Assembly: GCF_002239585.1 (NCBI RefSeq)
Contig: NZ_NDFH01000003.1
Span: forward strand, 62,001-126,000
Direction of reading: 5' to 3'
Length of the DNA stretch: 64,000 nt
Source: Psychromonas sp. CD1
GTDB lineage: Bacteria > Pseudomonadota > Gammaproteobacteria > Enterobacterales > Psychromonadaceae
The notes under the pieces were generated by a model. It saw only the letters and a list, made by a program, of their open reading frames with translations. It searched no databases and had not been told where the DNA came from. How positions within the stretch are numbered: the first letter of the stretch is position 1; every line of letters starts with the position of its first letter. The translations under genes were made by a program, and so were the position numbers. Below, in pieces: positions 15,070 through 59,745 of this stretch.

Positions 15070-15100
15070 GAATGTAAAAATTGATGCCTTAGAATAGAGA

Positions 15101-35770: not shown

Positions 35771-35787
35771 TCATACTTTAAAAATGG

Positions 35788-35814
35788 GATATAATGCCGA
35801 TTTTGCATTATATC
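35788..35814 (+). terminator. Hairpin after the helicase gene
   Basis: Perfect ten-base stem GATATAATGC / GCATTATATC with a seven-base loop, 17 bases after the helicase stop. No T run follows, so termination is uncertain. Confidence 0.4.
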
Positions 35815-36040
35815 TTGAATTCTAATTATCGGCTAGGTGGTGGCGCGACTGACGAAAGACGCAATCGTAACAATGACGTAGTATTGTGTGTTATATATCC
35901 TACTGCGTTTATGGCAATCGTGCATCGTGCATCGTTTATTAATTATTGAGTTTTTTGAATGGGTTTTAAATGGCATCTAAATTGGGTGTGTACACAAAAT
36001 TAGTGACAGGCTCAAGAGTTAGGGCTTGAGACCATAGTCA

Positions 36041-36062
36041 TTTGTAATTTTTGTTTTACAAA
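36041..36062 (-). terminator. Weak hairpin after the small lipoprotein gene
   Basis: Seven-base stem TTTGTAA / TTACAAA with an eight-base loop directly after the stop of the lipoprotein gene at 36063. There is no T run on the minus strand. A second small hairpin (CTCAAG / CTTGAG) lies at 36011-36030. Confidence 0.3.
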
Positions 36063-36326
36063 TTACAGCATAGGTTTTTCAAAACACATTATTGCTGCTG
36101 TATTTGTTTTATTTGAAGTGGTGTACTCAGATACATAAATCATTTTCCAACCATCATACTTCTCTAAAAGGTTATTAGTATCTTCATCATCTCCTGTTGT
36201 GTAACTTACGCAACGAGTCATTAAGTTAGACCCCTCAGATCCAGATGCTCGAACTTGAGAGCTAATATTCGCAGCTGCACAACCTGTTAAGAGAAGAACA
36301 ACCCCCATACTTAATATTAATTTCAT
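36063..36326 (-). CDS. Small predicted lipoprotein
   Basis: 87-residue protein with a lipoprotein signal peptide; the lipobox LLTGC puts the modified cysteine at residue 16. The mature part is about 70 residues with one pair of cysteines (TRCVSY and IMCFEK) that could form a disulfide in the periplasm. It ends IMCFEKPML. I do not recognise a family. AAGGAAACC precedes the ATG. It occupies the place where flgO and flgT lie next to flgP in Vibrio, but resembles neither. Confidence 0.7.
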   Translation of the reverse strand: MKLILSMGVVLLLTGCAAANISSQVRASGSEGSNLMTRCVSYTTGDDEDTNNLLEKYDGWKMIYVSEYTTSNKTNTAAIMCFEKPML

Positions 36327-36525
36327 TTGGTTTCCTTATTGATATACTTTATAAATTAAACGCTTTTAATCTCGAATTATAGAAGCTTAAAAGAGATATA
36401 TAACTGGCTATTAGAGCGTATGCTTATTAATATCCATTCAATAATTATTTTATAACACAAGACTACCCTCGCAAACAGTAGGTTAATGTTTATTGTCATT
36501 ATCGTTTTTAAGCAAGGATTTAATC

Positions 36526-37011: not shown

Positions 37012-37431
37012 TTAAGCTTGAATGTTTTTTCCTAAAAGAAGGCCGCCGTGTAACATCCCTTTTTGATCGTAAGTAATACTGTTTTTTCCCGTTGCTTGTT
37101 TGATAAGTTGGGTTAAATGTTTATTACTACGCATACCTACCTCAACAAGTTTACCGTTAATGTTATTAATGTATTGGCATTTTTCAAGGATAATTAAAAT
37201 TTCTTTTTTTATTTTTTTGGCTTCTTCGGAAGTTTCTATTTGTTGCAAAGAAGTTGAATTTGATAAAGCACTGTCTAATTCTGAAATTAAAGTTAATTTT
37301 TGTTTTTTTTGTTTTAAAATTTCATTAAGATTAGAAAAGCTTTTTTCTTTGAGGCATGTTGTTTCTTGTTTTAATGTACAGTGTAATTCATTTATTAAAA
37401 TTAACTGCTGATTTAGCTTTCCGATAGGCAT
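37012..37431 (-). CDS. flgN: Flagellar export chaperone FlgN
   Basis: 139-residue helical chaperone that keeps the hook-filament junction proteins FlgK and FlgL soluble before export. It is predicted to be almost all coiled helix (LNQQLILINELHCTLKQE at the start) with the family C-terminal block NSITYDQKG. It lies 24 bases after flgM on the same strand and is co-transcribed from the sigma-28 promoter upstream of flgM. Its client FlgL is truncated in this window. Confidence 0.87.
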   Translation of the reverse strand: MPIGKLNQQLILINELHCTLKQETTCLKEKSFSNLNEILKQKKQKLTLISELDSALSNSTSLQQIETSEEAKKIKKEILIILEKCQYINNINGKLVEVGMRSNKHLTQLIKQATGKNSITYDQKGMLHGGLLLGKNIQA

Positions 37432-37455
37432 AATTTAAATATCTCTGCTTATAAT

Positions 37456-37773
37456 TTATTTAAGTATGCGACTAAAATCACCTTCAAATTGGCTGATTCG
37501 TTGTGCGAGTCGTTGTGTATTTATTTTATATTCACCGTTTGTAATCGCTTTTTTTAACGATTCAAGACGTTGTTTATTCATTTGAGGTTCAATGGAGCTT
37601 TGTTGTTGCATTTTATTTATATTCTTGGCCTGTGCGGTTAACTGAACAGAGTCTTTATGCTGTTCATTGTTAATTTGACTTGATTTTTTTAAAGATGATT
37701 GTTGTGCCGGAGCTTTATGTTGCTCAACAACAATCTTCTTGGGTGCTGCTTGGCGGTTAATGTTGATGCTCAT
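37456..37773 (-). CDS. flgM: Anti-sigma-28 factor FlgM
   Basis: 105-residue inhibitor of the flagellar sigma factor FliA, exported through the finished hook. The N-terminal half is low-complexity and polar, as usual for this intrinsically disordered protein. The C-terminal half carries the FliA-binding part (MNKQRLESLKKAITNGEYKI, then RLAQRISQFE). It is preceded by a strong sigma-28 promoter (37805-37831) and followed by flgN. Confidence 0.9.
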   Translation of the reverse strand: MSININRQAAPKKIVVEQHKAPAQQSSLKKSSQINNEQHKDSVQLTAQAKNINKMQQQSSIEPQMNKQRLESLKKAITNGEYKINTQRLAQRISQFEGDFSRILK

Positions 37774-37804
37774 AATTATATTCCAAAAGTGCCTTGTTTA
37801 TATT

Positions 37805-37831
37805 ATATCGGCAACGGGACAGATTTCTTTA
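37805..37831 (-). promoter_or_regulatory. Sigma-28 (FliA) promoter of flgM-flgN
   Basis: On the minus strand TAAAGAAA, 11 bases, GCCGATAT. This matches the sigma-28 consensus TAAAGTTT-N11-GCCGATAA in 13 of 16 positions with exact spacing, 32 bases before the flgM ATG. Confidence 0.85.
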
Positions 37832-37863
37832 GATAAAACTAAAAAAACAATTATAATCGATTA

Positions 37864-38019
37864 CTAATATAATTATTTAAATAACAGGTTTTATATAAAA
37901 GTAAATTTCATTTTAAAATGCAACTCGCACCTCTTTTTGTGCTAATATAATTATTTAAATAACAGGCTTTATATAAAAGTAAATTTCATTTTAAAATGCA
38001 ACTCGCACCTCTTTTTGTG
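37864..38019. repeat. 78-bp tandem duplication of the flgA 3' end
   Basis: Two adjacent 78-base copies (37864-37941 and 37942-38019) differ at only one visible position (T or C at 37890/37968). The right copy contains the last nine codons and the stop of flgA plus downstream DNA; the left copy is a non-coding duplicate. The near identity points to a recent event. Confidence 0.92.
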
Positions 38020-38683
38020 CTGAAACTATTCCGACAATAATACGTTGAGAGTGTGAGTTTTTCACTCTAACAGATTCTCCAATGTTAGCATCATTTAAGG
38101 CTATTCCTGAAGTTTTAATTACTAATCCTGTTTTTATTGCGCTAATGATCACCTGGTCGTGTTTACACACAAAGCATACATCTCTATTTTTAATTATTTT
38201 TTGGGTGCTGATATTGCGCTTTAAGCGGCTACCGAGAAGTTCTGTTTTTTTTGAAAAACTACCCCCACGCAATTGAGATTTATTTAAATAAGCTATTTTT
38301 GTATTATTATTATTTAAGGTTTCACCTTTGCGTAGGGCATGTGCACTGATAACACTTGCGAAAAGTCGTTGTGAACGAACGCGTACATACGTTGACCATT
38401 CTTCGGTGTCAGGGCAAGTTACTTTAACCGAAACATTATTTTTTAATTTTCCTGAAACAATTTCCCCTAAAAAAGGTGATAAACATTTTTTATATTTTAG
38501 TCGTTTATTAAGAGGAACCACGTGAATTGATATTTGTTGTTTATTGTTTTCTGGATATGTTGCCGTATACTTATTTAAAATAAGTGTTGCAGTAAAGTCC
38601 TCAATACTTTTACTATAATTAGTTTCAGCAAAAGAAGCAGAACAGCCTAAGCTAAGAATAAGAATAAAAAAACGAATGAACAT
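37991..38683 (-). CDS. flgA: Flagellar P-ring assembly chaperone FlgA
   Basis: Periplasmic chaperone that helps FlgI form the P ring. 230 residues from the chosen start, with a signal peptide (FIRFFILILSLGCSASFA), a SAF-type domain and typical blocks VSVKVTCPDTEEWSTYV, ISAHALRKGETL and LKRNISTQKIIKNRDV. The frame is open 12 codons upstream, but the ATG at 38683 has AGGA five bases before it and starts the signal peptide. Its last codons and downstream DNA are tandemly duplicated. Divergent from cheV. Confidence 0.9.
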   Translation of the reverse strand: MFIRFFILILSLGCSASFAETNYSKSIEDFTATLILNKYTATYPENNKQQISIHVVPLNKRLKYKKCLSPFLGEIVSGKLKNNVSVKVTCPDTEEWSTYVRVRSQRLFASVISAHALRKGETLNNNNTKIAYLNKSQLRGGSFSKKTELLGSRLKRNISTQKIIKNRDVCFVCKHDQVIISAIKTGLVIKTSGIALNDANIGESVRVKNSHSQRIIVGIVSAQKEVRVAF

Positions 38684-38789
38684 AAAGATCCTGTTTGCGG
38701 ATGAATGAGGGCTTAACAAAGTCCCATTAGTTATTAAGCATCATTATAGAATGATTTTTTGATAAATTATAATTGAAAAGGAATATTAT

Positions 38790-39713
38790 ATGGCCGGCGT
38801 GTTAGATTCAGTGAATCCACGAACTCAACTAGTTGGACAAAATCGCTTAGAATTATTACTTTTTAAATTAGACGGTAAACAGCGTTACGGGATTAATGTA
38901 TTTAAAGTCAAAGAAGTACTTCAATGTCCACCTTTAACTAGCTTACCAAAATTACATCCCAGCATATGTGGTGTTGCGCATATTCGAGGGAAAACTATTT
39001 CTGTTATTGATATGAATATTGCTACGGGTGGGTGTGCTATTGATAATGTACAAAAACGTTTTATTATCATTACAGAATACAACCGTTCAACCCAAGGGTT
39101 TCTTGTCGGAGCCGTCGAGCGTATTATTAATATTAATTGGGAAAATATATTACCCCCCCCGAATGGCATTGGGCGTTCCAACTATATGACTGCTGTAACC
39201 GAAATTGATGGTGATTTGGTTGAAATATTGGATGTTGAAAAAATATTAGATGAAATTTCACCGTTTAATACTCATGTGAGCGATAGTGTGATTGATAAAA
39301 CAGTGAAAGATAAAGTGAAGAACAAAAAAATATTGGTTGTGGACGACTCATCCGTTGCTCGAAGACAAATAGATAGAGCAATTTCAGCATTGGGCTTAGA
39401 ATGTGAAATGGTAAAAGATGGTAAAGAAGCATTAGATTTGCTCAAAGAAAGATCAAAAACCGGATCTATTTTAGATCGTTATGCATTGATGATTTCTGAT
39501 GTTGAAATGCCAGAAATGGATGGTTACACTCTTACATCTGCCGTTAAATCAGATCCTGCATTAGCGGGCTTGCATATTATTTTACATACATCTTTGAGTG
39601 GAATATTTAATGAATCAATGGTCAAAAAAGTGGGCGCTGATGATTTTATAGCGAAGTTTGATCCGGATGAATTGGCAATAGCGGTACAAAAAGTGATTAA
39701 TTTGGATAGTTAA
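38790..39713 (+). CDS. cheV: Chemotaxis protein CheV (CheW-REC)
   Basis: Coupling protein that links chemoreceptors to CheA and can be phosphorylated for adaptation. 307 residues: a CheW-like domain (about 17-160, with YGINVFKVKEVLQCPPLTSL and GVAHIRGKTISVIDM) and a receiver domain (about 182-305) with phosphoacceptor Asp237 in LMISDVEMPEMDGY. AAAAGGAA precedes the ATG. It starts the cheV-cheR pair that adjoins flgB in Vibrio-type polar flagellar clusters. Confidence 0.95.
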   Translation: MAGVLDSVNPRTQLVGQNRLELLLFKLDGKQRYGINVFKVKEVLQCPPLTSLPKLHPSICGVAHIRGKTISVIDMNIATGGCAIDNVQKRFIIITEYNRSTQGFLVGAVERIININWENILPPPNGIGRSNYMTAVTEIDGDLVEILDVEKILDEISPFNTHVSDSVIDKTVKDKVKNKKILVVDDSSVARRQIDRAISALGLECEMVKDGKEALDLLKERSKTGSILDRYALMISDVEMPEMDGYTLTSAVKSDPALAGLHIILHTSLSGIFNESMVKKVGADDFIAKFDPDELAIAVQKVINLDS

Positions 39714-39742
39714 TATAATTAGCATTAAAGGGAGGAGCATCT

Positions 39743-40576
39743 GTGAGAATGATTTCCGATGATATTTACAAAAAGTTTTCAAGTTTTTTAGAAGTGCAGT
39801 GTGGCATTGTATTAGGCAGTAATAAGCAATATTTGGTAAAAAGTCGATTAATCCCTTTGATGGATGTTTTTTCTATTAACACACTTTCAAACTTAATTCA
39901 TGAAGCGATGAGTTATAAGAATCGTGCTCTAAGAACGGCTGTTATTGACGCGATGACAACCAATGAAACTTTATGGTTTCGAGATGTTTATCCTTTTGAG
40001 TTACTTGCAAAAAAAATATTCCCTGAAATATTAAAGTACAAAAAAAACATTAAATTATGGTCGGCCGCCAGTTCTTCAGGACAAGAAGCTTATTCTATTG
40101 CTATGGTTGCTTCTGAGTATCAAAAACAAAATGCAGTATTAGGTATGAATGTACAGATTATAGGTACGGATATCTCGAATACAATGCTCGAACAATGTAA
40201 AATGGGCGTTTATGATACGCTGGCTTTATCGCGTGGTTTATCAGAAACACGCAAGATACAATTTTTTGATTCGCTCTCTGATGGCTCTAATAAATTAGCA
40301 ATTAAAGGTGAAGTCAAAAAAATGACGAGTTTCAGAAGTTATAATTTGTTAGATAGTTATGCTCTGTTAGGTAAGTTTGATGTTGTTTTTTGTCGTAATG
40401 TTCTTATTTATTTTTCTGCAGATGTTAAATCTAAAATATTAAATCAGTTTGCAGGAGCTTTAAATCCTGGTGGTTATTTGATTTTAGGTGCGTCGGAATC
40501 TATCACCGGCTTAACGGACAAATATAATATGGTTCGTTGTAATCCTGGTATTATTTATCAATTAAAAGATAAGTAA
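39743..40576 (+). CDS. cheR: Chemotaxis protein methyltransferase CheR
   Basis: S-adenosylmethionine-dependent methyltransferase that methylates glutamates of chemoreceptors. 277 residues. Family blocks: NETLWFRDVYPFELL, the SAM-binding WSAASSSGQEAYSIAM, IIGTDIS and FDVVFCRNVLIYF. The start is a GTG at 39743 with GGGAGGAG seven bases upstream; the next ATG, two codons in, is too far from this site. It has no C-terminal receptor-tethering extension. It follows cheV after 29 bases, and an unusual double hairpin follows it. Confidence 0.95.
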   Translation: MRMISDDIYKKFSSFLEVQCGIVLGSNKQYLVKSRLIPLMDVFSINTLSNLIHEAMSYKNRALRTAVIDAMTTNETLWFRDVYPFELLAKKIFPEILKYKKNIKLWSAASSSGQEAYSIAMVASEYQKQNAVLGMNVQIIGTDISNTMLEQCKMGVYDTLALSRGLSETRKIQFFDSLSDGSNKLAIKGEVKKMTSFRSYNLLDSYALLGKFDVVFCRNVLIYFSADVKSKILNQFAGALNPGGYLILGASESITGLTDKYNMVRCNPGIIYQLKDK

Positions 40577-40583
40577 TGTCGTT

Positions 40584-40630
40584 GTTGCCTCTTTTGTAAA
40601 AAAAAGGGGCAACATTTGCCTCTTTTTTTT
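40584..40630 (+). terminator. Double-hairpin terminator/attenuator between cheR and flgB
   Basis: Segment A (GTTGCCTCTTTT, 40584-40595) can pair with B (AAAAGGGGCAAC, 40602-40613) in a 12-pair stem. The GGGGCAA part of B (40606-40612) can instead pair with A' (TTGCCTC, 40616-40622), which is followed by eight T residues. A and A' are near-identical. The second fold is a classical terminator; the first would prevent it. Confidence 0.75.
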
Positions 40631-40727
40631 GTTTAAACTCTTTCCTTCTTGTTTTTCTTCAATAACTTCTTTTATTTTACTTATATATATAAAAACATTC
40701 CCCTTTATCTTTTATCTTTTGTCTTTT

Positions 40728-40743
40728 TGGCATAGTGGTTGCA
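40728..40743 (+). promoter_or_regulatory. Sigma-54 promoter of the flgBCDE operon
   Basis: TGGCAT, AGTGG, TTGCA: the -24 GG and -12 GC are ten bases apart, exactly as in the sigma-54 consensus. It lies 25 bases upstream of the flgB ATG. FlrC-type control would be expected from Vibrio. Confidence 0.88.
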
Positions 40744-40767
40744 TAGAATCCTGTATAGGAGAAAATT

Positions 40768-41169
40768 ATGGCGATTAACTTTGATAAAGCACTGGGAATT
40801 CATCAATACACGTTAGGTGTACGTTCTCGTCGTGCTGAAATTTTAGCAAGTAATTTAGCAAATGCAGATACGCCAGGTTATAAAGCTAGAGATCTTAATT
40901 TTAAAGAAGCACTGTTAAGCGCTAGAACAGGATCCGGTCTTTCCTTAAGCCGTACTGATACGACCCATCGCGTAGGTCATACATTTTCAATGGCTCAATC
41001 TAATGAATATTATCGTGTAGCAAATCAGCCAGATACCGGTGATGGGAATAATGTTGATGCAGAAGTTGAACGTAATTTATTTATGAAAAACAGTATTGAG
41101 TATCAAGCAAGTCTAGATTTTTTAAATAGTAAAATATCAAGTCTACGTACCGCGATTAAAGGGCAGTAA
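40768..41169 (+). CDS. flgB: Flagellar proximal rod protein FlgB
   Basis: 133-residue rod subunit exported by the flagellar type III system. The N-terminal rod signature is [15 protein letters not shown] and the C-terminal helix [20 protein letters not shown] is the usual coiled partner. AGGAG precedes the ATG. First gene of the sigma-54 driven flgBCDE run; 21 bases separate it from flgC. Confidence 0.96.
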
Positions 41170-41190
41170 ATACGTTTTTGGAGAGTTATT

Positions 41191-41610
41191 ATGAGTTTAT
41201 TTCGTATTTTAGATATTTCAGCGACAGGCATGAGCGCGCAATCGGTACGCTTAAATACTACCGCAAGTAATTTGGCGAATGCTAATAGTGTAAGTAGTAG
41301 TAGTGGAAAATCGTATCGTGCTCGTCAACCTGTTTTTGCTGCTGAATTAAATAGAGCACAAGGCGCTTTAAGTGGCAGTGTTGGAGTAAGAGTTTTAGGC
41401 ATAGTGGAGAGCAATGCTCCTTTAACAAAGGAATATGCACCTAATAATCCAAGTTCAGATAAAGATGGTTTTGTTTATCATTCTAATGTGAATGTGATGG
41501 AAGAAATGGCAAATATGATAAGTGCTTCTCGTTCGTATCAAACAAATGTACAAATCGCCGATGCAGCGAAACAAATGCTAAGTCGTACATTACAAATGGG
41601 CAAAGGTTAG
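41191..41610 (+). CDS. flgC: Flagellar proximal rod protein FlgC
   Basis: 139-residue rod subunit. Signature ASNLANANSVSS near the N-terminus, and the C-terminal block SNVNVMEEMANMISASRSYQ with the terminal helix. GGAGAG precedes the ATG. Second gene of flgBCDE. Confidence 0.96.
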   Translation: MSLFRILDISATGMSAQSVRLNTTASNLANANSVSSSSGKSYRARQPVFAAELNRAQGALSGSVGVRVLGIVESNAPLTKEYAPNNPSSDKDGFVYHSNVNVMEEMANMISASRSYQTNVQIADAAKQMLSRTLQMGKG

Positions 41611-41617
41611 GGAATAA

Positions 41618-42319
41618 ATGATGAGTACAATTAATACTAATAGTTTATTAAAGTTGAATAAACCTTTAACTGCAGAGCAAGTGGCCGCAAATAAAGAGGT
41701 GGATAAAAAGCAAGTGCTCGAGCAAGAAGATTTTTTTGCTCTATTGTCCCAACAACTTGCTTACCAAGACCCCTTTAAACCGGTAGATAACTCTGAAATG
41801 ATTTCGCAAATGGCATCTTTTACGACAGCTGAAGGCATCACTAAAATGGGTAATGAATTTGCGGGTATAAAAAATGTACTGAGTTCAAGCCAAGCATTAG
41901 AAGCTTCTTCTTTAGTGGGTAAAAAAGTATTGATTCATAGTAATACTGGATATTTAATGGAAAACAAAGAATTATCGGGCTCATTAAATATTAAATCTGG
42001 TGCCTACGCTGTAATGGTCGACGTTGTCGATAAAAGTGGAGCTGTTATGAAAACCCTTAACTTAGGTGATGTAGAGACTGGAAATCAGCGTTTTACTTGG
42101 GATGGTTTAAACAGTCAAGGCAAACGTGTTGTACAGGGGAAATATACCTTTAAAGCGCATGGAATGGTTAATGGTAAAGGTGAGGACTTAGTTTCTACGG
42201 TGTATGCTCATGTAGAGAGTGTAAGCCTTGGAGGGGGTAAAGCAGGTATTAGTTTAAATTTAAAAGGATTGTCTGGAATTAAACTTGTAGATGCAATTGA
42301 AGTTGCAGAAAATAAATAA
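41618..42319 (+). CDS. flgD: Flagellar hook capping protein FlgD
   Basis: 233-residue scaffold that caps the growing hook. The N-terminal export and capping block is EDFFALLSQQLAYQDPFKP with EMISQMASFTTAEGI; the C-terminal half has the Ig-like and Tudor-like part with NQRFTWDGLNSQGKRV. Two in-frame ATGs follow each other; AGGGA is better spaced for the second (41621). Seven bases after flgC, twelve before flgE. Confidence 0.95.
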   Translation: MMSTINTNSLLKLNKPLTAEQVAANKEVDKKQVLEQEDFFALLSQQLAYQDPFKPVDNSEMISQMASFTTAEGITKMGNEFAGIKNVLSSSQALEASSLVGKKVLIHSNTGYLMENKELSGSLNIKSGAYAVMVDVVDKSGAVMKTLNLGDVETGNQRFTWDGLNSQGKRVVQGKYTFKAHGMVNGKGEDLVSTVYAHVESVSLGGGKAGISLNLKGLSGIKLVDAIEVAENK

Positions 42320-42331
42320 GAGGAAAATATT

Positions 42332-43753
42332 ATGTCTTTTAATATTGCATTAAGTGGAATAGCCGCTGCACAAACGGACTTAGATTCAACGGCGAATAAT
42401 ATTGCCAACGTGAATACTGTGGGGTTTAAAGAATCTCGAGCTGAATTTGAAAGTGTTTACGCTAGTTCCTTATTTACCAATAGTAAAACCAAAGTGGGTG
42501 ATGGTGTTTCTACGGCGGCTGTCGCGCAACAGTTTCATCAAGGAAGTTTAAAGTTTACGCAAAATCCACTTGATTTGGCTATTACAGGTAGTGGTTTCTT
42601 TGCGACAGCAAGTAACCTTGAAGAGCGAGAATTAAGCTATACACGTTCAGGTACTTTTAAATTAAATAGTGATAATTTTGTTGTCGATAATAGTGGGAAT
42701 TATTTACAGGCTTTTCCTGTTAATGAAGATGGTACATCTTCATCGGTAAGTTTAAGCACAACAAAGCCGATACAAATTCCAGAAACGGCGGGTACGCCAA
42801 TATCGACATCAGAAATAAATATTACGTTAAATTTACCTGCGGGAGATAAAGCGATGGATCCTACAAAATTTGATCCTGATGATCCCGACACGTATAACAA
42901 TGCGACTTCAGTTACTATTTATGATTCTTTAGGTGAGTCGCATATTACGACCACCTATTATGTTAAACCTGAAAATGCATCTTATACAGGAGAGAATCAA
43001 TGGGTAACATTTGTTACCGTTGATGGTAAAGCGGTCGATGTATGGGATGAAGCGGGTGGTACAGGGCAGGTTGCCGGAACTTATGATATCGATGCAGATA
43101 ACGATGGTGTTGCAGATGGTACGCCACAAGCCGCCTCTTATGTCGATAAAGATGGTAACACTCATACAGGTGCCGTTTTGAAATTTGATTCGGTGGGCGC
43201 ATATAAAGGTAGTTCGCCGGTTGTCTTAACGTTCCAATCATTAGGTGTCGATGACCCTAGCTCTGCAGCTGGTGGTGATGGTGCTGGTGTTTTGTCACCT
43301 GGTGCGGATGGTGCACAACGTTTCACGTTAACGTATATGGAGCCCACACAGTTCTCTTCTGCATTTGAGGTTACCTCATTAGAACAAAATGGATTAACGG
43401 TAGGTCGCTTAACCGGTGTTGAAATAGGTAAAGATGGGCTGGTGAAGGCGACATATAGTAATGGTACTTCGCAACCATTATCTAGAGTGGCTATTGTTCG
43501 ATTTCGTAATGAGCAAGGTTTGACTCAAACTGGCTCATCATGGATAGCGACACAAAATTCAGGTGAACCGCTTGCAGGAGAAGCTAATTCAGGCTCTTTT
43601 GGTGCGGTTAATTCTGCTGCTTTAGAACAATCTAATGTAAATTTAACCACGGAGTTGGTAGATTTGATCACAGCACAACGTAACTTCCAAGCAAACTCAC
43701 GAGCATTAGAAGTTAATAATACATTGCAACAAACAATACTGCAGATTCGTTAA
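42332..43753 (+). CDS. flgE: Flagellar hook protein FlgE
   Basis: 473-residue hook subunit. N-terminal block ALSGIAAAQTDLDSTANNIA with NTVGFKESRAEF; the C-terminal signature LEQSNVNLTTELVDLITAQR is conserved. The middle domain (about 150-370) is acidic and variable and carries a DADNDGVADGTP stretch that resembles a calcium-binding loop. AGAGGAAAA precedes the ATG. Last gene of flgBCDE, followed by a strong terminator. Confidence 0.96.
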   Translation: MSFNIALSGIAAAQTDLDSTANNIANVNTVGFKESRAEFESVYASSLFTNSKTKVGDGVSTAAVAQQFHQGSLKFTQNPLDLAITGSGFFATASNLEERELSYTRSGTFKLNSDNFVVDNSGNYLQAFPVNEDGTSSSVSLSTTKPIQIPETAGTPISTSEINITLNLPAGDKAMDPTKFDPDDPDTYNNATSVTIYDSLGESHITTTYYVKPENASYTGENQWVTFVTVDGKAVDVWDEAGGTGQVAGTYDIDADNDGVADGTPQAASYVDKDGNTHTGAVLKFDSVGAYKGSSPVVLTFQSLGVDDPSSAAGGDGAGVLSPGADGAQRFTLTYMEPTQFSSAFEVTSLEQNGLTVGRLTGVEIGKDGLVKATYSNGTSQPLSRVAIVRFRNEQGLTQTGSSWIATQNSGEPLAGEANSGSFGAVNSAALEQSNVNLTTELVDLITAQRNFQANSRALEVNNTLQQTILQIR

Positions 43754-43777
43754 TTTATTGTGATGTTTTTATTTTAG

Positions 43778-43805
43778 ACGCACCTTTTTTTAGGTGCGTT
43801 TTTTT
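43778..43805 (+). terminator. Rho-independent terminator of flgBCDE
   Basis: Perfect eight-base stem ACGCACCT / AGGTGCGT with a six-T loop followed by a run of T, 25 bases after flgE. It makes flgF onwards depend on its own promoter or on read-through. Confidence 0.92.
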
Positions 43806-43889
43806 GATTGTTATATTTATTACTTAATTAATGAAGAATTTATTTTAAACGAATATTATATTTCGATTTTAATCGATTAAGGAATCAAT

Positions 43890-44636
43890 ATGGATCGCCT
43901 GCTTTATATCTCCATGTCTGGTGCGAAAGAGAATATGAATGCCTTAGCTATTCATGCGAATAACATGGCAAATGCAAACAAGACTGGATTTAAATCTAGC
44001 TTTGAGCAAGCGCGTAGTATGCAAGCTTATGGAGAGGGATTGCCAACGCGTGTTTTTTCGTTAGCAGAAGAGCCCGGGCAAAACTTTGAAAGTGGGATAT
44101 TACAAATGACTCAGAGAGATTTGGATATTTCAATTAAAGGCTCAGGTTGGTTTGTAGTGGACTCTAAACTCGGTGGTCAAGCTATGACGCGTGCGGGAGG
44201 ATTAAATATTAATCAACAGGGATTTCTTATTGATACGGTAGGTAATCAGGTGTTAAACCAAAAGGGTGCACCTATTTTTATACCGCTACCTGTTGAAAAA
44301 TTTAATATTCGTCAAGATGGCGTAGTCGAAATTCGGCCGGCAGGGGCACCAGCCGATGCAATGGAAGAAATAGCACAAATAAAATTAGTAAACCCTAACA
44401 TTAGAGATATTTTACGTGGAGAAGATGGCCTATATCGGCGTATTGATGGTGTAGATCCGAAAACAGATGCCACTGTTTTAATACAAAGTGGAGCGCTAGA
44501 GGCTTCAAATGTGAATATGAGCAGTGAATTAACCAGTTTAATTAGTTTACAAAGACAATTCGAGATGCAAATTAAAATGATGAAAAAAGCAGAAGAGATG
44601 GATAAAGCTTCAGAGTCATTATTACGTATTGTATAA
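43890..44636 (+). CDS. flgF: Flagellar rod protein FlgF
   Basis: 248-residue proximal rod subunit. Family blocks: ANNMANANKTGFKSSFEQAR at the N-terminus, SGWFVVDSKLGGQAMTRAG in the middle and SGALEASNVNMSSELTSLI at the C-terminus. AAGGAATC precedes the ATG. It begins a second transcription unit after the flgE terminator, but no sigma-54 site was seen in the 84 bases between. flgG follows after 33 bases. Confidence 0.95.
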   Translation: MDRLLYISMSGAKENMNALAIHANNMANANKTGFKSSFEQARSMQAYGEGLPTRVFSLAEEPGQNFESGILQMTQRDLDISIKGSGWFVVDSKLGGQAMTRAGGLNINQQGFLIDTVGNQVLNQKGAPIFIPLPVEKFNIRQDGVVEIRPAGAPADAMEEIAQIKLVNPNIRDILRGEDGLYRRIDGVDPKTDATVLIQSGALEASNVNMSSELTSLISLQRQFEMQIKMMKKAEEMDKASESLLRIV

Positions 44637-44669
44637 CTTGATTATTTTAATGTATTAAGGAGTGAGTAT

Positions 44670-45458
44670 ATGCATCCTGCATTATGGATAAGTAAAACTG
44701 GGCTTGATGCTCAGCAAACAAATGTTGCGACTATTTCAAATAACCTTGCTAATGCAAGTACTATTGGCTTTAAAAAAAGCCGAGCTATTTTTGAAGATTT
44801 GCTTTATCAAAATATTAATCAACCAGGAGCAAATGCAACTCAAAACACGAAATTACCGTCGGGGTTAATGATTGGAGCTGGAGCTAAAGTCGCGGCGATA
44901 CAAAAAAACTTTTCACAAGGTAATGTACTAACGACTAAAAACTCTTTAGATATTATGATTGATGGTAATGGTTTTTTTGAAATAGAAATGCCAGATGGCA
45001 GCTCAGGTTATACGCGGAATGGGCAATTTCAGTTGAATGAAGACGGTATTATAGTAACGCCAGGCTCTGGTTATGCTTTAATGCCACAAATTCAAATTCC
45101 GAATGATGCGCTGTCTATTAGTGTAGGCTCTGAAGGGGAAGTGTCTGTTCGTCTAGCTGGGCAAATTGAAAATCAGGTGGTTGGACAAATTAATGTCAAT
45201 GGTTTTGTTAATCCCTCTGGGCTTGAGCCTATGGGTGAAAATTTATACACTGAAACGGGATCAAGTGGTGCTCCGCTACAGGGAGTTCCTGGTGGGGATG
45301 GGTTAGGTTTTTTACGGCAAGGGATGTTGGAAACATCGAATGTAAATGTTACCGAAGAGCTAGTTAATTTAATTGAAAGTCAGCGTATTTATGAAATGAA
45401 CTCAAAAGTTATCTCTGCAGTTGACGAAATGCTCTCTTATGTTAGTCAGCAATTATAA
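44670..45458 (+). CDS. flgG: Flagellar distal rod protein FlgG
   Basis: 262-residue distal rod subunit. N-terminal NNLANASTIGFKKSRAIFED, middle NGFFEIEMPDGSSGYTRNG, C-terminal LETSNVNVTEELVNLIESQR. AAGGAG precedes the ATG. In the usual order flgH follows within a few bases; here 341 bases without a gene separate flgG from flgI. Confidence 0.96.
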   Translation: MHPALWISKTGLDAQQTNVATISNNLANASTIGFKKSRAIFEDLLYQNINQPGANATQNTKLPSGLMIGAGAKVAAIQKNFSQGNVLTTKNSLDIMIDGNGFFEIEMPDGSSGYTRNGQFQLNEDGIIVTPGSGYALMPQIQIPNDALSISVGSEGEVSVRLAGQIENQVVGQINVNGFVNPSGLEPMGENLYTETGSSGAPLQGVPGGDGLGFLRQGMLETSNVNVTEELVNLIESQRIYEMNSKVISAVDEMLSYVSQQL

Positions 45459-45799
45459 ATGTAATGTCGCGTTCGGTTTTCAGGGTAATGCGCTTATGAT
45501 GTTTTATTTCATACTCGCGTTCAAGTTTCAAATGTTATTGTATTCGTAAAATGAATGATAAAAATAGCTTATACAAAGAGATAAATAGTGTTGTTGCGCA
45601 TCAATATCTAGAGTTTTAGTGTAAACAAGATATCAATAATAAAGTTATTATCTATAAAATGTGTGCTTGGCTAATGATAAACAATGTAAAGAGATCCTGC
45701 ATAGACATGTTTAAGGGGGATTTTAAAACATATCGAAATAATGATAGATAAGTCGATGAAAGCCTCTATTGACTGTTGTAACAAATTTAAGGAAATCAT
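45459..45799. other. Gap where flgH would be expected
   Basis: 341 AT-rich bases between flgG and flgI, with stops in all three plus-strand frames. No lipoprotein signal, no L-ring protein motif and no intact remnant of flgH was found. The longest frames are below 35 codons. AAGGAA before 45800 is the flgI binding site. Confidence 0.7.
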
Positions 45800-46900
45800 A
45801 TGAAATTTTTGACGCATACGAGTATTGCATTCATATTACTGCTATTTGCAAGTACAAGTTACAGTGCCCGCATTAAAGATATTGCGAGTATACAAGGCGT
45901 TCGTAGTAACCAATTAGTGGGTTACGGCTTAGTTGTGGGGTTACCTGGTACTGGAGAAAAAAGTAGTAAGTTTACCGAACAAGCCTTTTCGACGATGTTG
46001 CGTAATTTCGGCGTTAATATTCCCATCGGAGAAAAGTTAAAAATAAAAAATGTTGCTCCTGTGGCTGTCACCGCAGAATTAAAAGCCTTTGCTAAACGAG
46101 GTCAAAAAATTGACATTACTGTTTCTGCCATTGGTGAGGCTAAAAGCCTGCGAGGTGGAGAGCTATTACAAACCTTTTTAAAAGGGGTTGATGGAAAGAT
46201 TTATGCGATTGCACAAGGTAGTGTGGTCGTTGGTGGCCTAGGTGCAGAGGGCGCAGATGGTTCAAAAGTAATGATTAACACACCGACGGTGGGTCGTATT
46301 GCCAATGGCGCGATGGTAGAAAAAGAAGTTATATCGCCTTTTTCTCAAGGTGACACCATTACCTTTAATTTATATGAGTCTGATTTTACGACTGCTAAAA
46401 GAATGGCGGATACGATTAATAACTTAGTCGGCGCCAATACTGCAACCATGTTGGACGCAACTTCTGTGCAAGTACTCGCTCCGCGTAATATATCACAACG
46501 TGTTTCTTATTTATCAACGTTAGAGAATCTTGAGTTTGAACCGGCAAGAGGAGCTGCAAAAGTGATTGTTAATTCACGTACCGGTACCATTGTTATTGGT
46601 CAAGATGTCAAATTATTGCCGACGGCTATTACGCATGGTGGAATAAGTGTCACCATCAGTGAAAATAAAACGGTGGATCAGCCAAATGCCTTTGCAGGAG
46701 GGAAAACTCAAGTTACAAATAATAGTACAATCACTATTACTAATGAAGATAGTCGCATGTTCACTTTTGATACGGGGGTTAGTTTGAATGATTTAGTTCG
46801 CGCCGTAAATGAAGTGGGGCTCGCACCTGGCGATTTGATGGCAATCTTAGAGGCATTAAAACAAGCGGGAGCTTTACAAGGTGAGTTGATTATTATTTAA
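45800..46900 (+). CDS. flgI: Flagellar P-ring protein FlgI
   Basis: 366-residue periplasmic ring protein around the rod. Signal peptide of about 22 residues ([13 protein letters not shown]), then the highly conserved [37 protein letters not shown] and the C-terminal [20 protein letters not shown]. Full length. Its assembly chaperone FlgA is present, but the L-ring partner FlgH is not in the neighbourhood. A strong terminator follows, and the next flagellar gene (flgJ) is 1.5 kb away. Confidence 0.97.
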
Positions 46901-48439: not shown

Positions 48440-49423
48440 ATGTCGGATAATAGGATAACACCAGCAAGTAATTATTTTGATTTACAAGGACTGGATCAAT
48501 TACGTAAGAAGGCGCTGAATAATGATAAAGGTGCTATCCGTGATGTTGCGAATCAATTTGAAGCGATGTTTGCTTCGATGCTAATAAAATCAATGCGTAA
48601 AGCCAATGAGGCTTTTGAATCGGACAGTCCATTTAATAGTCAACAAACCAAGTTCTATACAGATATGCAAGATAAACAATTGGCGCTTAATATTAGTCGC
48701 CATGGTGCTCTTGGCCTTGCTGACTCACTTGTTCGTCAGTTAGATTCGACTTCATCTGTTTCATCTAAACAATCCGTTCCCCTTGATGAATTACAAATGC
48801 CTAATCAGCATGAACAACGTTCATATTCTTTGCATAATAAAGCTGTCTTTTTAAATATCAATAATAAAAATACGAATATGAAGTTAAATATAGCAGATAG
48901 AACGCCACAATTAGATGCGAAAATGACGGTATTCGAGTTTAAAGATAAGAAATCATTTATTAGTACCTTATTACCTTATGCAAAAAAAGCAGCAAAAGTA
49001 TTAGGTATTGCGCCAGAGGTTTTAATTGCTCAGTCTGCGTTAGAAACAGGGTGGGGAAAAAAAATTATTAATGGTAAGCATAATAAAAGTAGTTTTAATT
49101 TATTTAATATAAAAGCAAGTGCAAATTGGTCAGGTGACCGAGTGGCGAAAGAAAGTATAGAAATAGAAAATGGTATTGCGGTAAAACGAAGTTATAACTT
49201 TCGAAGTTATGACAATATTGCACAAAGTTTTAATGATTATGCGCAGTTTATTGGACAGAGTAAGCGTTACCAAGGTGCATTAGCACAAGGGACGAATGCC
49301 AATTCATATATTGAACAATTACAACAAGCAGGGTACGCAACAGATCCCTCTTATGCACAAAAAGTGAAAGATATTATGCAAAGTGAGTCCTTTAAAGAGA
49401 TCTTAAAAGGAGATAAAAACTAA
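48440..49423 (+). CDS. flgJ: Peptidoglycan hydrolase and rod-cap protein FlgJ
   Basis: 327-residue dual-domain FlgJ. The N-terminal rod-scaffold domain shows VANQFEAMFASMLIKSMRKA and the C-terminal glucosaminidase (GH73) domain shows IAPEVLIAQSALETGWGKK with catalytic Glu202 and the block SFNLFNIKASANW. It opens the periplasmic wall for the rod. It has its own sigma-54 promoter upstream. The last base of its stop is the first base of the flgK ATG. Confidence 0.95.
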   Translation: MSDNRITPASNYFDLQGLDQLRKKALNNDKGAIRDVANQFEAMFASMLIKSMRKANEAFESDSPFNSQQTKFYTDMQDKQLALNISRHGALGLADSLVRQLDSTSSVSSKQSVPLDELQMPNQHEQRSYSLHNKAVFLNINNKNTNMKLNIADRTPQLDAKMTVFEFKDKKSFISTLLPYAKKAAKVLGIAPEVLIAQSALETGWGKKIINGKHNKSSFNLFNIKASANWSGDRVAKESIEIENGIAVKRSYNFRSYDNIAQSFNDYAQFIGQSKRYQGALAQGTNANSYIEQLQQAGYATDPSYAQKVKDIMQSESFKEILKGDKN

Positions 49424-51504
49424 TGGCAGATTTACTACAAATTGGCTTGTCGGGGATCACTGCGTCGCAAGCAAGTATTGCGACGACAGGGCATAATATT
49501 GCCAATATCAATACTAAAGGTTATTCACGCCAAAGTGTTGAAGTAGTCACTGGAGGAGCTGATCGTTACGGTACAAATTTTATAGGGCGTGGCGCGGTAG
49601 TAAGTAGTATTGAACGCGCTTATGATCGTTTTGCTTTTACTGAAAATATAATGAACACATCACAACTTGCGTATAGTAAAGAGGTTTTTACGAAAATGAG
49701 TCAAATGGATGCGTTACTTTCAGATAGTAGCACTTCAGTAACAAAGCCAGTTTTAAATGTTTTTAACTCCTTAAATGGCGTTGCTGATCATCCAAACATG
49801 TTAGAATCTCGTCAAGTTTTTTTAGAATCTTCCGGTAATATGATTAATCAGTATCATAGATTGTATGACAATCTTGAAATTCAATATACAAATGTCAACA
49901 ATGAAATCACGAATTCAGCCAAAACATTAACGACCTTAGCTACCAACGTTGCACAATTAAATTCACAAATTTCTGATGTATTAGGCAGCAGTACAGATAG
50001 TCGGGCGAATGATTTATTAGATCAGCGTAACCAAGCGATTGCTAAGTTAAGTGAAGTAGTGGATATCTCTGTCGTGCCAGTAAAAAATGGTATGGTCAAC
50101 GTTTATGTTGGAAGTGGACAAGCTATCGTAATGGGTAGCACTTCATTAGATATTATTTCGGTTAATGGCGACCCTGACCCCTCTCGGCAAGAATTGGCCA
50201 TGAATGTACGTGGTCATTTAGTGACCTTAGACGGGGAGCGTATGGGTGGGAAAGTATCTGCTTTATTTGAGGTTAGAAATAATGAGATAGAAAAAGCCTT
50301 TGATCAATTAGGACAAAATGTCATCGGGTTAACTCATTCCATTAATGAACAGCAAAAAGAAGGTCAAACATTAGAAGGGAAAATTGGCGCCGACATCTTT
50401 AATAATATTAATTCTGCGCAGAGTATGAAAAACAGAGTGCTGGCACACAATGATGATTTAGGCTCAGCTCAATTAAGTTTACGTATTGATGATTTAAGCC
50501 TGTTATCGCCAGATGAATATACTTTAGTCGTTGATAATTACCAAGTAGCAAGTGCGACGTCAACAGAAACAATATCCTTTACATTGACTAATAATAGAAC
50601 GGGCGATTCACAGGTTGTCTCAATTGCTGATTTATCTAAAACGCATCGTGTGGACTTGCCTAATACAGGGCTTAGTTTAGGTATTGATGCCATTATTGCA
50701 AATGATCCTCCACAAGTCGGCAAAAAGTTTAGTCTGCGTCCCACGCGGTTAGGCGCTCAAGAAGCAACATTACTACATAAAGATCCTAAAAAAATAGCAG
50801 CCGCAAGTGCGGAAATAAAAGCACAAGAAAAGAAAGGTAATCAAGGCGATGCACGTTTACGAGTGAGTGTGTTGAACGATCCTTTAGATCCACTTTATAT
50901 GAAAAAAGATAGTCCTCTTTCTATTGTTATCACTGCAAATACCGGTGGAGTTTTGACTTATGACATTGTCAATAAAGATGGCAATGTAGTTAGTTTACCT
51001 TCAGGCTCTGCGAATAATTATGTGCCCCCTAAAGTTGCGGGGGATTTATTAACGGGGTTAACGGTGACACCTGACTTATTAAGTGGAAAAGTAATTTTTG
51101 ATGTCGCAGGTATTGAAGTTGAAATGTATCAAGGCGCGCCTATTGTGGGAGATCAATTCACCTTAAATTATAATGAAACGGGTGATGGTGATAATAGTAA
51201 TGTAATGAAAATGGCTGCATTGCAGAGTCAAAAAATCATGAATAACAATAAAGCGACGTTTCAAGATGTTTATAGTGGCATGATATCTGAGATTGGAGCT
51301 AAAACTTCAAATGCAGACGTATCAATGCAAGCTGCAACTATTTTACAGCAACAATCTTTCGAGCGAGTTGAAAATGTGAGTGGGGTAAATATGGATGAAG
51401 AAGCTGCAAATTTATTGAAGTTTCAGCAACATTACAGCGCGGCTGCGCGTGTTATATCTGTAGCAGGTGAGCTTTTCGATACGATCTTACGAGCCGTTAG
51501 ATAA
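49423..51504 (+). CDS. flgK: Flagellar hook-filament junction protein FlgK (HAP1)
   Basis: 693-residue junction protein, longer than E. coli FlgK (547) because of a large variable middle. The N-terminal block is GLSGITASQASIATTGHNIA followed by NTKGYSRQSVEV; the C-terminal one is NMDEEAANLLKFQQHYSAA. The core D0/D1 parts appear intact. Overlaps flgJ by one base. It is a client of FlgN. The next gene flgL begins 74 bases later behind a possible sigma-28 promoter. Confidence 0.95.
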   Translation: MADLLQIGLSGITASQASIATTGHNIANINTKGYSRQSVEVVTGGADRYGTNFIGRGAVVSSIERAYDRFAFTENIMNTSQLAYSKEVFTKMSQMDALLSDSSTSVTKPVLNVFNSLNGVADHPNMLESRQVFLESSGNMINQYHRLYDNLEIQYTNVNNEITNSAKTLTTLATNVAQLNSQISDVLGSSTDSRANDLLDQRNQAIAKLSEVVDISVVPVKNGMVNVYVGSGQAIVMGSTSLDIISVNGDPDPSRQELAMNVRGHLVTLDGERMGGKVSALFEVRNNEIEKAFDQLGQNVIGLTHSINEQQKEGQTLEGKIGADIFNNINSAQSMKNRVLAHNDDLGSAQLSLRIDDLSLLSPDEYTLVVDNYQVASATSTETISFTLTNNRTGDSQVVSIADLSKTHRVDLPNTGLSLGIDAIIANDPPQVGKKFSLRPTRLGAQEATLLHKDPKKIAAASAEIKAQEKKGNQGDARLRVSVLNDPLDPLYMKKDSPLSIVITANTGGVLTYDIVNKDGNVVSLPSGSANNYVPPKVAGDLLTGLTVTPDLLSGKVIFDVAGIEVEMYQGAPIVGDQFTLNYNETGDGDNSNVMKMAALQSQKIMNNNKATFQDVYSGMISEIGAKTSNADVSMQAATILQQQSFERVENVSGVNMDEEAANLLKFQQHYSAAARVISVAGELFDTILRAVR

Positions 51505-51540: not shown

Positions 51541-51578
51541 GTAGGTAGGTAATATGTTCATTTTCAAGAGAGGTAAGT

Positions 51579-53072
51579 ATGCGTATTTCTAGCCAAGTTT
51601 TTTTCCAGCGTAATACAAAAAACATGCTTACCCATCAAACTCAATTGAGTGAAAAAAATATTCATTTAGCCACTCAAAAAAGAGTTATCAATGCATCGGA
51701 TGATGCGGTTGCGATTGCGACTATTCAGCGTTTAAAGCAAGATGTGTCGGTTGCAGATCAGTATGTAAAAAATGGAGGAATGGCAGAAACTGCTAATGCA
51801 TTAGAATCTATTTCATTAGCACAAACCACTAATATTTTACAACGTACCCGCGAATTAATGGTGACATCGGGTAACGAAACTTACAATGAAGAGGGGCGTG
51901 AAGCGATAGCTACAGAGCTAGAACATTTACGTGAAGAGCTAGTTGGGGTTGCAAATACTAAAGATGGCAATAGTCAGTATATATTCTCTGGTTTTGAAGT
52001 GGATATTGAACCGTTTCAAAAAAATGAATTTGGCACGGTTGAATATCATGGTGATGATGGTAATCGCTCTTATCAAATCGGCTCTGGGGTTGCTATTCAG
52101 GGTGGGGATCCGGGCTCTGCCATTTTTATGCAAATACCAGAAGGTAATGGTAGTTTTGTGGCCGAAGCCAATAATCATAATTCAGGATCGGGAGTCTTAG
52201 ATGTTGCATCTATTATTGATACAAAAGTTGCAGATAAATTTCAAGGCCTAGATTATACGATTTCAATTAGTGATTCAATCCCGAAGGGTACTGAAAAATA
52301 CTCGGTTTACAGCACAGCTAAAGAAAATGTAACGGGTGATGCTTCAATCAAAATATCTAAAGTAGATCTGACCGATGTAAATATTGCGAGTGTTAACCCT
52401 AATAGCGTTTATCCTGATGCGGGGAGTGATGTAGACATTGATTTTGTGGCAACATTAGTACCTGGTGAATTTGAAGTTCGCATCAATAACCAATCATCTT
52501 TGCCTAATATATATAATGCTAACAATAATGCACATCAAGAAATAACCATTAATGGAATTTCAATAGAAATATCTGGTATGCCAAACAATGGAGATCAATA
52601 TAAGATCACAAAATATATTGAGCCGACAACTTATAAAGAAGGGCAATCCATTGAATTCAACGGTATAAAAACAAAATTAAAAGGTGAGGTGAATGAGTTC
52701 GATTCCTTTTCACTAAGACAAAGTGGCACTAAAGATATTTTTTCTACAATACAAGATGCCATTGATACATTACGTATTCCTGGAGATGCTGATGGGCCAA
52801 CAGCGCAACGAGAAATGCGTTTAGATACGGTGCGTCATCAAATTGACAATGCAATGGGAAATATTTCTACCGTGGTGACTTCAGTTGGTGCGAGACGAAG
52901 AACAATTGAAAATCAACACGAATCGACAGTAGATTTTCAATTGAGTAATAAAAAAACATTATCTAATTTAGAAGATTTAGATATGGCTTCAGCGATCAGT
53001 GAATTCAAACTCCAGATGACAAGCTATCAATATTCAAACCGCAGTAACCGGAGTTACCGCAAAAGGTTATAA
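51579..53072 (+). pseudogene. flgL: flgL with lost 3' end, joined out of frame to a flagellin gene
   Basis: Hook-filament junction protein FlgL (HAP3). The N-terminus is normal (MRISSQVFFQRNTKNML, TQKRVINASDDAVAIAT) and so is the conserved C-terminal stretch NLEDLDMASAISEFKLQMTS. After Gln484 (codon 53028-53030) the homology stops: instead of the usual 20-odd residues ending near SLFNYI, 13 unrelated residues follow (YSNRSNRSYRKRL). From about 53020 the DNA reads as flagellin in the next frame. The missing helix belongs to the D0 domain that FlgL needs for assembly, so the product is probably non-functional. The open frame could still be translated as 497 residues. Confidence 0.8.
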
Positions 53073-54069
53073 TGTGGTTGAAGGCAAAGCCTTTGATGGT
53101 ATAACGGTAACGGGTATTACAAATGGGTTAAGTATTCAAGTAGGTGATGGTGCAAATATTATGTTGGGTGCCACATCTTCAATGGATAATTTAGCAGAAA
53201 CTATCAATCGTGATGTCAAAGGCGTGACGGCAAGTGTCGGGAAAGATGGGCGCTTAATTTTAAATAATGATACTGGATTTGCTATCACTGTGGGCGGTAA
53301 TGTTGCAAATTCTGGTTTAGAGGCTGCGACTTTTGAAGGTTACTTAGGTTTAACCAGCCAAGATGGCGGTCCTATTGAAATTGGAGTTGGTAGTAAGGGC
53401 ACAATCGGAGATAATACTGACACTAAAAAGTTTGGCTTTATGATCACAAATGGAAGCTCAGTATTAACCGATGCACCTAGTACCGGCGCACTGTTAGAGA
53501 CGGACCGGATCAGTATTAATGGTGTTGAATTAATAGATTCAAGTGCGAGTACTATTGAAGATAAAATGGCTGCAATTAATAAATTAACCGATAAAACCGG
53601 TGTAACAGCGAGTGCGAGTCAACCTGTTGGAAAATTAATATTAACGGCTAAAGATGGTAGTGATATTGTTATTTCTAGTAGTGCTGGAACGGAAGCGGAT
53701 AAAACGTTAGCACTTGCAAAATTAGGCATAAATGATGTTGGAGGCACCGCAGTTACAGAGTTGGGGTTAAGTGTGACAACGTCTAAAAAAGCGTCACAGA
53801 GTCTGGGTCGTATCGATATTGCATTGTCAAAAATATCTGAATCTCGTGCGGGATTAGGAGCAATTCAAAATCGATTAGGTTCCACTATTTCTAATTTAGA
53901 AAATGTATCGCAAAATTTATCTGCATCAAACTCTCGTATTCAAGATGCTGATTTTGCTGCGGAAACATCGAAATTGAGTAAATCTCAAATTTTGCAACAA
54001 GCAGGTACTGCTATGCTTGCTCAAGCAAATGCGAGCACTAAAAGTGTATTACAGCTTTTACAAGGTTAA
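53020..54069 (+). pseudogene. Flagellin gene lacking its 5' half
   Basis: C-terminal part of a flagellin. In this frame homology begins near 53020 (QAINIQTAVTGVTAKGYN), inside the flgL frame and with no start codon. It continues through a variable middle domain and ends with the flagellin C-terminal helix region (ESRAGLGAIQNRLGSTISNL, SRIQDADFAAETSKLSKSQI, LQQAGTAMLAQANAS, VLQLLQG). The N-terminal D0/D1 domain, normally the first 150-200 residues with the export signal, is absent. A GTG at 53074 has AAAAGG seven bases upstream and could give a 331-residue fragment, but that fragment could not form a filament. No promoter of its own is left. Confidence 0.82.
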
Positions 54070-54166
54070 TTATGCAAATTAATTTATAATCGCTAATTTA
54101 GGCTTGTAAAATGGGTGAAACTTTCTTTGGTTTTTTAGGGAGTTGTTAATTTACCCGTTACAAGTA

Positions 54167-54183
54167 AATTGGTCCGACCATTT
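54167..54183 (+). promoter_or_regulatory. PdhR operator
   Basis: AATTGGTCCGACCATTT matches the known PdhR palindrome ATTGGT-N3-ACCAAT with one mismatch. It lies 23 bases before the chosen pdhR start, consistent with pyruvate-relieved autorepression of pdhR-aceEF. Its position also argues for the downstream ATG as the true start. Confidence 0.82.
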
Positions 54184-54205
54184 TGCAAAGAGTAAAAAGG
54201 TTGTT

Positions 54206-54958: not shown

Positions 54959-55071
54959 TCATTTCGATTACTTATTACATGTTAATGCGTGTAGTGAATA
55001 ATCGAAATAATTACTAAACCACCCACTTAGTCTTCGGATTAAGATTTTCAGTAATAGAGAAGGAATGTGTC

Positions 55072-57735: not shown

Positions 57736-57869
57736 CCATCTTGAAAATACTTAAAGTTAAGTTTGTCGTTAATATGATTAATGTAAATGTAAATGTAAAA
57801 AATTGCGGATATTAATACATATTCGACTAACCTTAACTTGAGTATTAGCGTGTTTTTAGGAAAACTATT

Positions 57870-59417: not shown

Positions 59418-59745
59418 ACGAATGCTGAGTTTCAATATGTATGTAAGAAGATACATATAGAATACGGGTAATATTTTATAAAGAATGTCATATGATGAAA
59501 CGGTAGGATGTAGTAATCGTCTCATCTATAAAATTACCGAATAACACATTATTTTGTATCGGTTTGTGGTATTGCGCGCTTTATTTATATAAAAGATCAC
59601 CTTTTTATTCTGCTAGAAAATAGTCTTACGGACAAAATTCAATGTTGTGTGTCTTTTGTTGTAATCAATAAAAGACACACAACAGAGCGCAAAACATCAA
59701 CGATTGATATTAAACGTATTTTTTTGTTTTATGAAGGATGTATAT
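59418..59745. other. Intergenic region between aceF and gltB
   Basis: 328 bases without a gene. The main feature is a perfect 15-base inverted repeat at 59643-59684 (separate entry). The gltB promoter should be here. No sign of lpd or its remnant was seen. Confidence 0.5.
59643..59684. other. Perfect 15-bp inverted repeat upstream of gltB
   Basis: TGTTGTGTGTCTTTT / AAAAGACACACAACA with a 12-base spacer, no mismatch, 61 bases before the gltB ATG. The T run lies inside the 5' arm and none follows the 3' arm, so it is not a classical plus-strand terminator. It could be an operator for a dimeric regulator or an mRNA leader hairpin. Confidence 0.7.

Follow-up and report, generated by a model that had tools for sequence, protein, structure and literature searches.

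Flagellar gene loss is already known in host-associated Pseudomonadota. According to the excerpted portions of one survey (PMC13063649), host association goes together with a lower prevalence of flgL, flhA, fliQ, fliR, fliK and other flagellar genes, and genome size explains more of the variation than lifestyle does. Buchnera aphidicola, too, is a reduced symbiont in which part of the flagellar gene set survives; in the passages of PMC8109811 considered here, it keeps the export machinery and the basal body. Psychromonas CDP1 is likewise a reduced symbiont with a partial set, yet the parts differ: CDP1 has lost the export gate and keeps rod, hook, cap and one flagellin gene. In addition, the survey treats prevalence and divergence across genomes, with Psychromonas unmentioned in its excerpted portions, whereas CDP1 shows individual deletions and offers a view of their recency.

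The passages of PMC5893861 considered here describe CDP1 as a genome-reduced gut bacterium of Hirondellea gigas, a hadal amphipod, with three contigs of 1,688,241 bp, deleted genes (torCAD, carbohydrate genes) and shortened intergenic regions. Its genome was assembled from pooled Illumina reads of six metagenomes, the contigs were ordered against other Psychromonas genomes and the gaps were closed by PCR (PMC5893861, same passages). The genome analysed here has 1,688,234 bases in three contigs and is almost certainly CDP1. Genome reduction is common to both accounts, as far as those passages go, and the flagellar losses belong to the present analysis only; flagella, motility, chemotaxis and pseudogenes have 0 occurrences in the main text of PMC5893861. 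The deletion at flgL and a neighbouring flagellin gene, and those at the main flagellar locus, are not described in PMC3668011 (the genome paper of Psychromonas CNPT3, our main comparison, with a published size of 3,052,410 bases), in the excerpted passages of PMC8216301 and PMC7542103 (both on Psychromonas and Hirondellea), or in the portions of PMC5893861, PMC6155364 and PMC13063649 considered. In these sources the specific CDP1 losses thus appear unreported. They are a case of symbiont gene erosion caught early.

The window, that is, the whole stretch of DNA that was analysed (64,000 nucleotides), holds flgL directly behind flgK, with a flagellin remnant fused to its end (Table 1). In a base-by-base map against CNPT3, the nearest of the relatives found, 989 bp net are absent at window 53019/53021. 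Two collinear, same-strand blastn blocks, window 51549-53019 (80.6% identity) and 53021-54135 (81.0%), stand about 0.99 kb apart in CNPT3; since the blocks (about 1.5 and 1.1 kb) break inside genes that are adjacent in CNPT3, a chance match is excluded. The missing 989 bp consist of 68 nt of flgL, a spacer of 264 bp and 657 nt of flagellin (219 codons). An earlier note on this DNA had proposed a single deletion reaching from the end of flgL across the spacer into the front of flagellin, and the collinear blocks bear this out. Its figures fared unevenly: the loss of the spacer held, the roughly 20 flgL codons it supposed compare with 22 found, and its 150-200 flagellin codons fell short of the actual number. 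FlgL homology, which it followed to Gln484, ends at Met480 (53016-53018). Judged on the sequence, the deletion and its size are confirmed; the deletion itself is an ordinary event.

Table 1. Features of the flgL-flagellin region and its surroundings (positions count from the first letter of the window)
Feature	Position	Strand	Description
Unaligned 0.7 kb	35761..36491	.	In place of about 4.5 kb of CNPT3, including flgO
flgN, flgM, flgA, cheV, cheR, flgB, flgC, flgD, flgE, flgF, flgG, flgI	37012..46900	.	Full length vs CNPT3
flgJ	48440..49423	+	Full length vs CNPT3
flgK	49423..51504	+	Full length, 693 codons, 83% identity to CNPT3
flgL remnant	51579..53018	+	Codons 1-480, 83% identity to CNPT3 FlgL
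Deletion junction	53019..53021	.	989 bp net missing; CNPT3 (G010) C1 about 744745-745734
Out-of-frame flgL tail	53019..53072	+	17 foreign residues and TAA, replacing 22 native C-terminal residues
Flagellin remnant	53020..54069	+	Matches codons 220-568 of the flagellin next to flgL in CNPT3, 87% identity; native upstream region and Flagellin_N gone
Candidate GTG start	53074..53076	+	Could begin a 331-residue flagellin fragment; direct reading
Second deletion junction	54135..54143	.	Directly follows the flagellin remnant; lacks about 5.2 kb of CNPT3 DNA with four predicted genes

The FlgL frame (51579-53072, 497 codons) matches Pfam Flagellin_N with 61.9 bits, and its Flagellin_C match is weak, truncated and under the cut-off. 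The C-terminal D0 helix of FlgL is incomplete: 17 unrelated residues, TSYQYSNRSNRSYRKRL, stand where its last 22 should be. The open flagellin frame (53020-54069, 349 codons) carries Flagellin_IN and a full Flagellin_C (90.4 bits); a Pfam search of this frame found no Flagellin_N. Neither broken frame has an internal stop. The flagellin frame had been taken to be without a start codon, and its head indeed has no ATG, but the GTG at 53074, preceded at seven bases by AAAAGG, lies just past the FlgL stop and could start the shortened fragment listed in Table 1.

The ancestral state was judged from the 19 relatives of the same genus in which FlgL gave a long match. Excluded were G012, whose gene runs off a contig, G005, with a weak match, and G002 and G021, with none. 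FlgL is full length in all 19. That flgL and a flagellin gene were ancestral neighbours, as the earlier note assumed, agrees with 13 of the 19: in 12 the flagellin match begins 264-315 bp downstream of flgL, and the thirteenth (L045) has a full flagellin frame downstream, though its flagellin match was only partial in one comparison. No flagellin was found downstream of flgL in the stretch fetched from the other six. CNPT3 shares the gene order flgK-flgL-flagellin at about 80% DNA identity, with a flgL of 501 codons (from the second possible start), the 264-bp spacer and a flagellin of 568 codons. Unlike CDP1, it has both genes at full length, the whole cheW-fliE cluster and a genome of 3.05 Mb. 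Alignment with such loci, the check suggested at the outset, shows intact relatives and a sharp break in the window; because all 19 relatives have a complete FlgL and 13 of them a flagellin neighbour, the arrangement in the window is most simply derived by deletion.

How the ends were joined can be read less fully, as the ancestral bases at the junction are inferred only via relatives at about 80% identity or less. A microhomology-mediated deletion at AAGCTATCAA had been suggested, but this idea is not supported. The sequence fits the flagellin side only: the TSYQ presumed for the FlgL context occurs in 0 of the 19 relatives, all of which read [S/G]-x-L-E at the break point. Base 53020 is an exact match to neither side in the CNPT3 map, and at most about one junction base is common to both CNPT3 sides, so that a plain illegitimate join is the better reading. 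A phage or plasmid origin was also considered and set aside; the flagellin-like matches in plasmid-listed records (two) and the FlgL-like match in a phage record of 2.1 kb (one) are all weak and uninformative. No Rfam match reached gathering scores in the window, and promoter and terminator scans stayed at chance level.

The remaining flagellar genes of the window, from flgN to flgK, are whole. Pfam was run on flgN to flgE; flgF, flgG and flgI are names we presume from gene order and CNPT3 homology, and what we take to be flgJ is so called from its position and homology. flgO is missing from its place in the window. Two further stretches of the window are shorter than in CNPT3. At 59440-59728 about 5.2 kb is absent, including lpdA (pyruvate dehydrogenase E3) and monomeric isocitrate dehydrogenase, with aceE and aceF staying in place. 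At 15033-15172 about 3.6 kb is absent in a two-sided truncation, which leaves a 22-residue stump of a 266-residue gene and cuts the end of its neighbour.

Elsewhere in the genome the flagellar system is far from complete. The search for rescuing copies that the earlier note had envisaged found no second flgL in the genome and one other intact flagellin (566 codons, next to fliD); genome-wide, Flagellin_N has two matches, the truncated FlgL and this flagellin. Profile searches of the whole genome found neither FlhA nor FliP. The same FlhA search succeeded in 20 of 25 genomes (14 of 15 other same-genus genomes), and FliP is present in CNPT3. DNA of the main CNPT3 flagellar cluster finds only parts in CDP1, with two losses at the main locus, both in the interior of contig C3, away from its ends. 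The first spans 12.95 kb (CNPT3 2474593-2487543), from just before cheZ to the end of fliJ, and takes away cheY, fliA, flhG, flhF, flhA, flhB, fliR, fliQ, fliP, fliO, fliN, fliM, fliL and fliK. The second, of about 12.5 kb (CNPT3 2492900-2505380), removes the front of fliF (30 codons) and fliE; as its far end aligns at only 73%, the extent of this loss is less certain. Main-cluster genes are named by order and presumed homology unless a profile supports the name. DNA searches found no cheY-fliK genes and no fliE elsewhere in the genome. As for the export system (FlhA, FlhB, FliP, FliQ and FliR), the block holding all five genes is missing at the locus, and FlhB, FliQ and FliR were not found elsewhere by DNA search; all absences other than those of FlhA and FliP rest on DNA searches. 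Completeness is estimated at 79.9% here and 99.3% in the cited passages of PMC5893861, and because the two disagree, genome-wide absences carry some risk, although the losses sit inside a contig.

The opposite end of the cluster carries an inversion relative to CNPT3, about 12.7 kb long (C3:1019168-1031926). Its breakpoints truncate a CheW-like gene and what we presume to be ccmB, which serves cytochrome c maturation (103 of 227 residues matched); the presumed ccmA, the neighbour of ccmB, is missing at the site.

In sum, several losses (flgL-flagellin, cheY-fliK, fliE and the front of fliF, the CheW-like gene, flgO) hit one pathway in a reduced genome, with intact relatives. The earlier note had foreseen a cell without a working HAP3 and this flagellin, which is incomplete, since far more is missing (FlhA, FliP, cheY-fliK, fliE). 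We propose that an illegitimate deletion (989 bp net) joined flgL codon 480, out of frame, to flagellin codon 220, and that it is one of several deletions eroding the CDP1 flagellar system. A FlgL whose last 22 residues are replaced should fail at assembly, perhaps at chaperone binding. FlhA is a core part of the flagellar export gate, and axial (rod, hook) proteins leave the cell by flagellar type III export. Any assembly defect would thus be secondary: without FlhA and FliP the axial proteins have no known exit, which breaks the flagellum well upstream of FlgL and would leave an intact FlgL, too, without a known way out. FlgL would presumably be neither exported nor assembled, and the two remnants would be passive pseudogenes in cells that probably make no flagellum, a non-flagellated cell being the most likely state. 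We hold with high confidence to this reading as a whole, that is, to a 989-bp illegitimate deletion within the recent flagellar erosion of the genome-reduced gut symbiont CDP1.

The age of the loss can be approached through selection and divergence. Against CNPT3, flgL has a dN/dS of 0.087 and the flagellin remnant one of 0.076, with medians of 0.069 for 17 flagellar or chemotaxis genes and 0.065 for 35 others; only matches of at least 90 aligned residues were used, and the aligned part of one of the 35 contains a stop. Amino-acid changes were then polarized with outgroups, two for fliG, fliF and fliD and three for the rest; fliC, flgJ, the flagellin remnant and flgI lacked two outgroups at 80% coverage and were skipped. 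Across 14 flagellar or chemotaxis genes, CDP1-only changes outnumber CNPT3-only changes by 207:130 (p 3e-5). The same holds for 11 control genes of the window (6955-15069 and 54143-59417; genes with two or more outgroups in the fetched stretches), at 109:54 (p 2e-5). The two ratios do not differ (Fisher p 0.28). Relaxed selection on the flagellar genes was thus rejected as the explanation of their excess; the controls are raised alike, which makes a lineage-wide acceleration in CDP1 likely. For flgK and flgL together the count is 32:31, below the controls (p 0.03); flgL has 8:9 with four outgroups and 11:9 with three. The flagellin remnant offers 96 columns, with 4:1 (p 0.38), and on their own these counts are too small for a verdict. 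In fliI alone CDP1 shows an excess (13:1; p 0.0018 before any correction for the 14 genes), which leans towards relaxed selection on this gene; among the controls aceE shows no CDP1 excess (7:9).

These counts can be set against a simple neutral model, with the CDP1 branch assumed to hold about half of the pairwise dS. The flgL count is already unlikely (P = 0.02) if 2% of the branch was unconstrained, and the flagellin count reaches P = 0.01 only when 10% of the branch is taken as unconstrained. Were all 207 changes neutral, they would fill a neutral period of about 4% of the branch, or 3.6-5.3% depending on the rate used. The surviving flagellar genes that were compared change no more than the controls, and the loss of function therefore probably dates to the final 5% or so of the branch. 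The signs of an old pseudogene (raised dN/dS, internal stops, a lineage-specific excess) were not found. With both broken frames open and no extra CDP1-specific change, the loss looks recent relative to the CDP1-CNPT3 split. That selection has relaxed so little is unexpected if the flagellum is dead, and fits only if the loss was recent; the alternative is that the remnants retain function. It is quite possible, and we put it forward tentatively, that swimming was under selection for some 95% of the history since the CNPT3 split and that the flagellum was lost very recently, in several steps that might still be segregating among amphipods or trenches.

Function could be retained if the leftover flagellar parts serve a role other than motility, one in which flgL and a second flagellin are dispensable. 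This would agree with the lack of excess change over controls in the 14 flagellar or chemotaxis genes and with the full length of the window flg genes other than flgL, and a parallel exists in Buchnera, which keeps flagellar basal bodies (PMC8109811, as excerpted). The parallel breaks down at export, however: Buchnera retains type III export according to the same excerpts, whereas CDP1 lacks FlhA and FliP by profile search and FlhB, FliQ and FliR by locus and DNA search. Rod and hook proteins would then have no known export route. Recent loss explains the constraint equally well, and we consider the non-motility role very unlikely. Less likely still is a functional chimera, in which ribosomal frameshifting in the overlap at 53020-53072 would yield a single protein with the N-terminal D0 helix of FlgL and the C-terminal one of flagellin. 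The frames do overlap by about 50 bases, both are open, and their ends are complementary D0 halves. On direct reading, however, a slippery heptamer is not evident, the single-strand fold at the junction is ordinary (DNA parameters only, z = -1.09) and, with FlhA and FliP not found, such a protein would have no export by a known route. We rejected the fusion, to which we give next to no credence.

A different kind of alternative is that the junction is an assembly artefact or a minority variant: a pooled, reference-assisted assembly could have skipped 1 kb in a population that has an intact flgL-flagellin pair. The way in which the genome was built (six pooled metagenomes, ordering on other Psychromonas, PCR-closed gaps; PMC5893861, in the passages cited) leaves room for this, and the area is somewhat repetitive, with a 210-bp flagellin C-terminal coding stretch about 82% identical to the other flagellin. 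Yet the break lies outside the stretches shared by the paralogues, and its left side is flgL, which was found once. Other flagellar losses lie about 0.9 Mb away from the flgL junction, and the window itself has further losses of 3.6 to 5.2 kb. Since one pathway has been hit at several separate places, a misjoin or minority variant is unlikely, though we rate it as less improbable than the non-motility role.

Recent erosion by deletion, then, shows how recent the loss of the flagellum is in a hadal gut symbiont. It also carries a warning about gene counts: CDP1 has many motility genes and lacks the export gate. If the recent loss is true, motility loss would be a late event in the symbiosis. 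The excerpted passages of PMC8216301 state that 'Cell Motility' genes in H. gigas are contributed mainly by Psychromonas, which is compatible with many leftover motility genes in the absence of the organelle, although the strain there may differ. If the loss is as recent as it looks, read-based claims that Psychromonas drives motility among the gut bacteria would be built on the genes of an organelle that is dead or dying. Should other Psychromonas bins from H. gigas differ at these deletions, they would provide a datable series of motility-loss steps.

One further flagellar gene has an unusual placement. In neither CDP1 nor CNPT3 does flgH lie between flgG and flgI; both genomes have a lower-scoring flgH sequence at a distant locus (CDP1 C3:329824-330360; CNPT3 C1:1067392-1067928), and the relative G009 has a second flgH match with a similar score.
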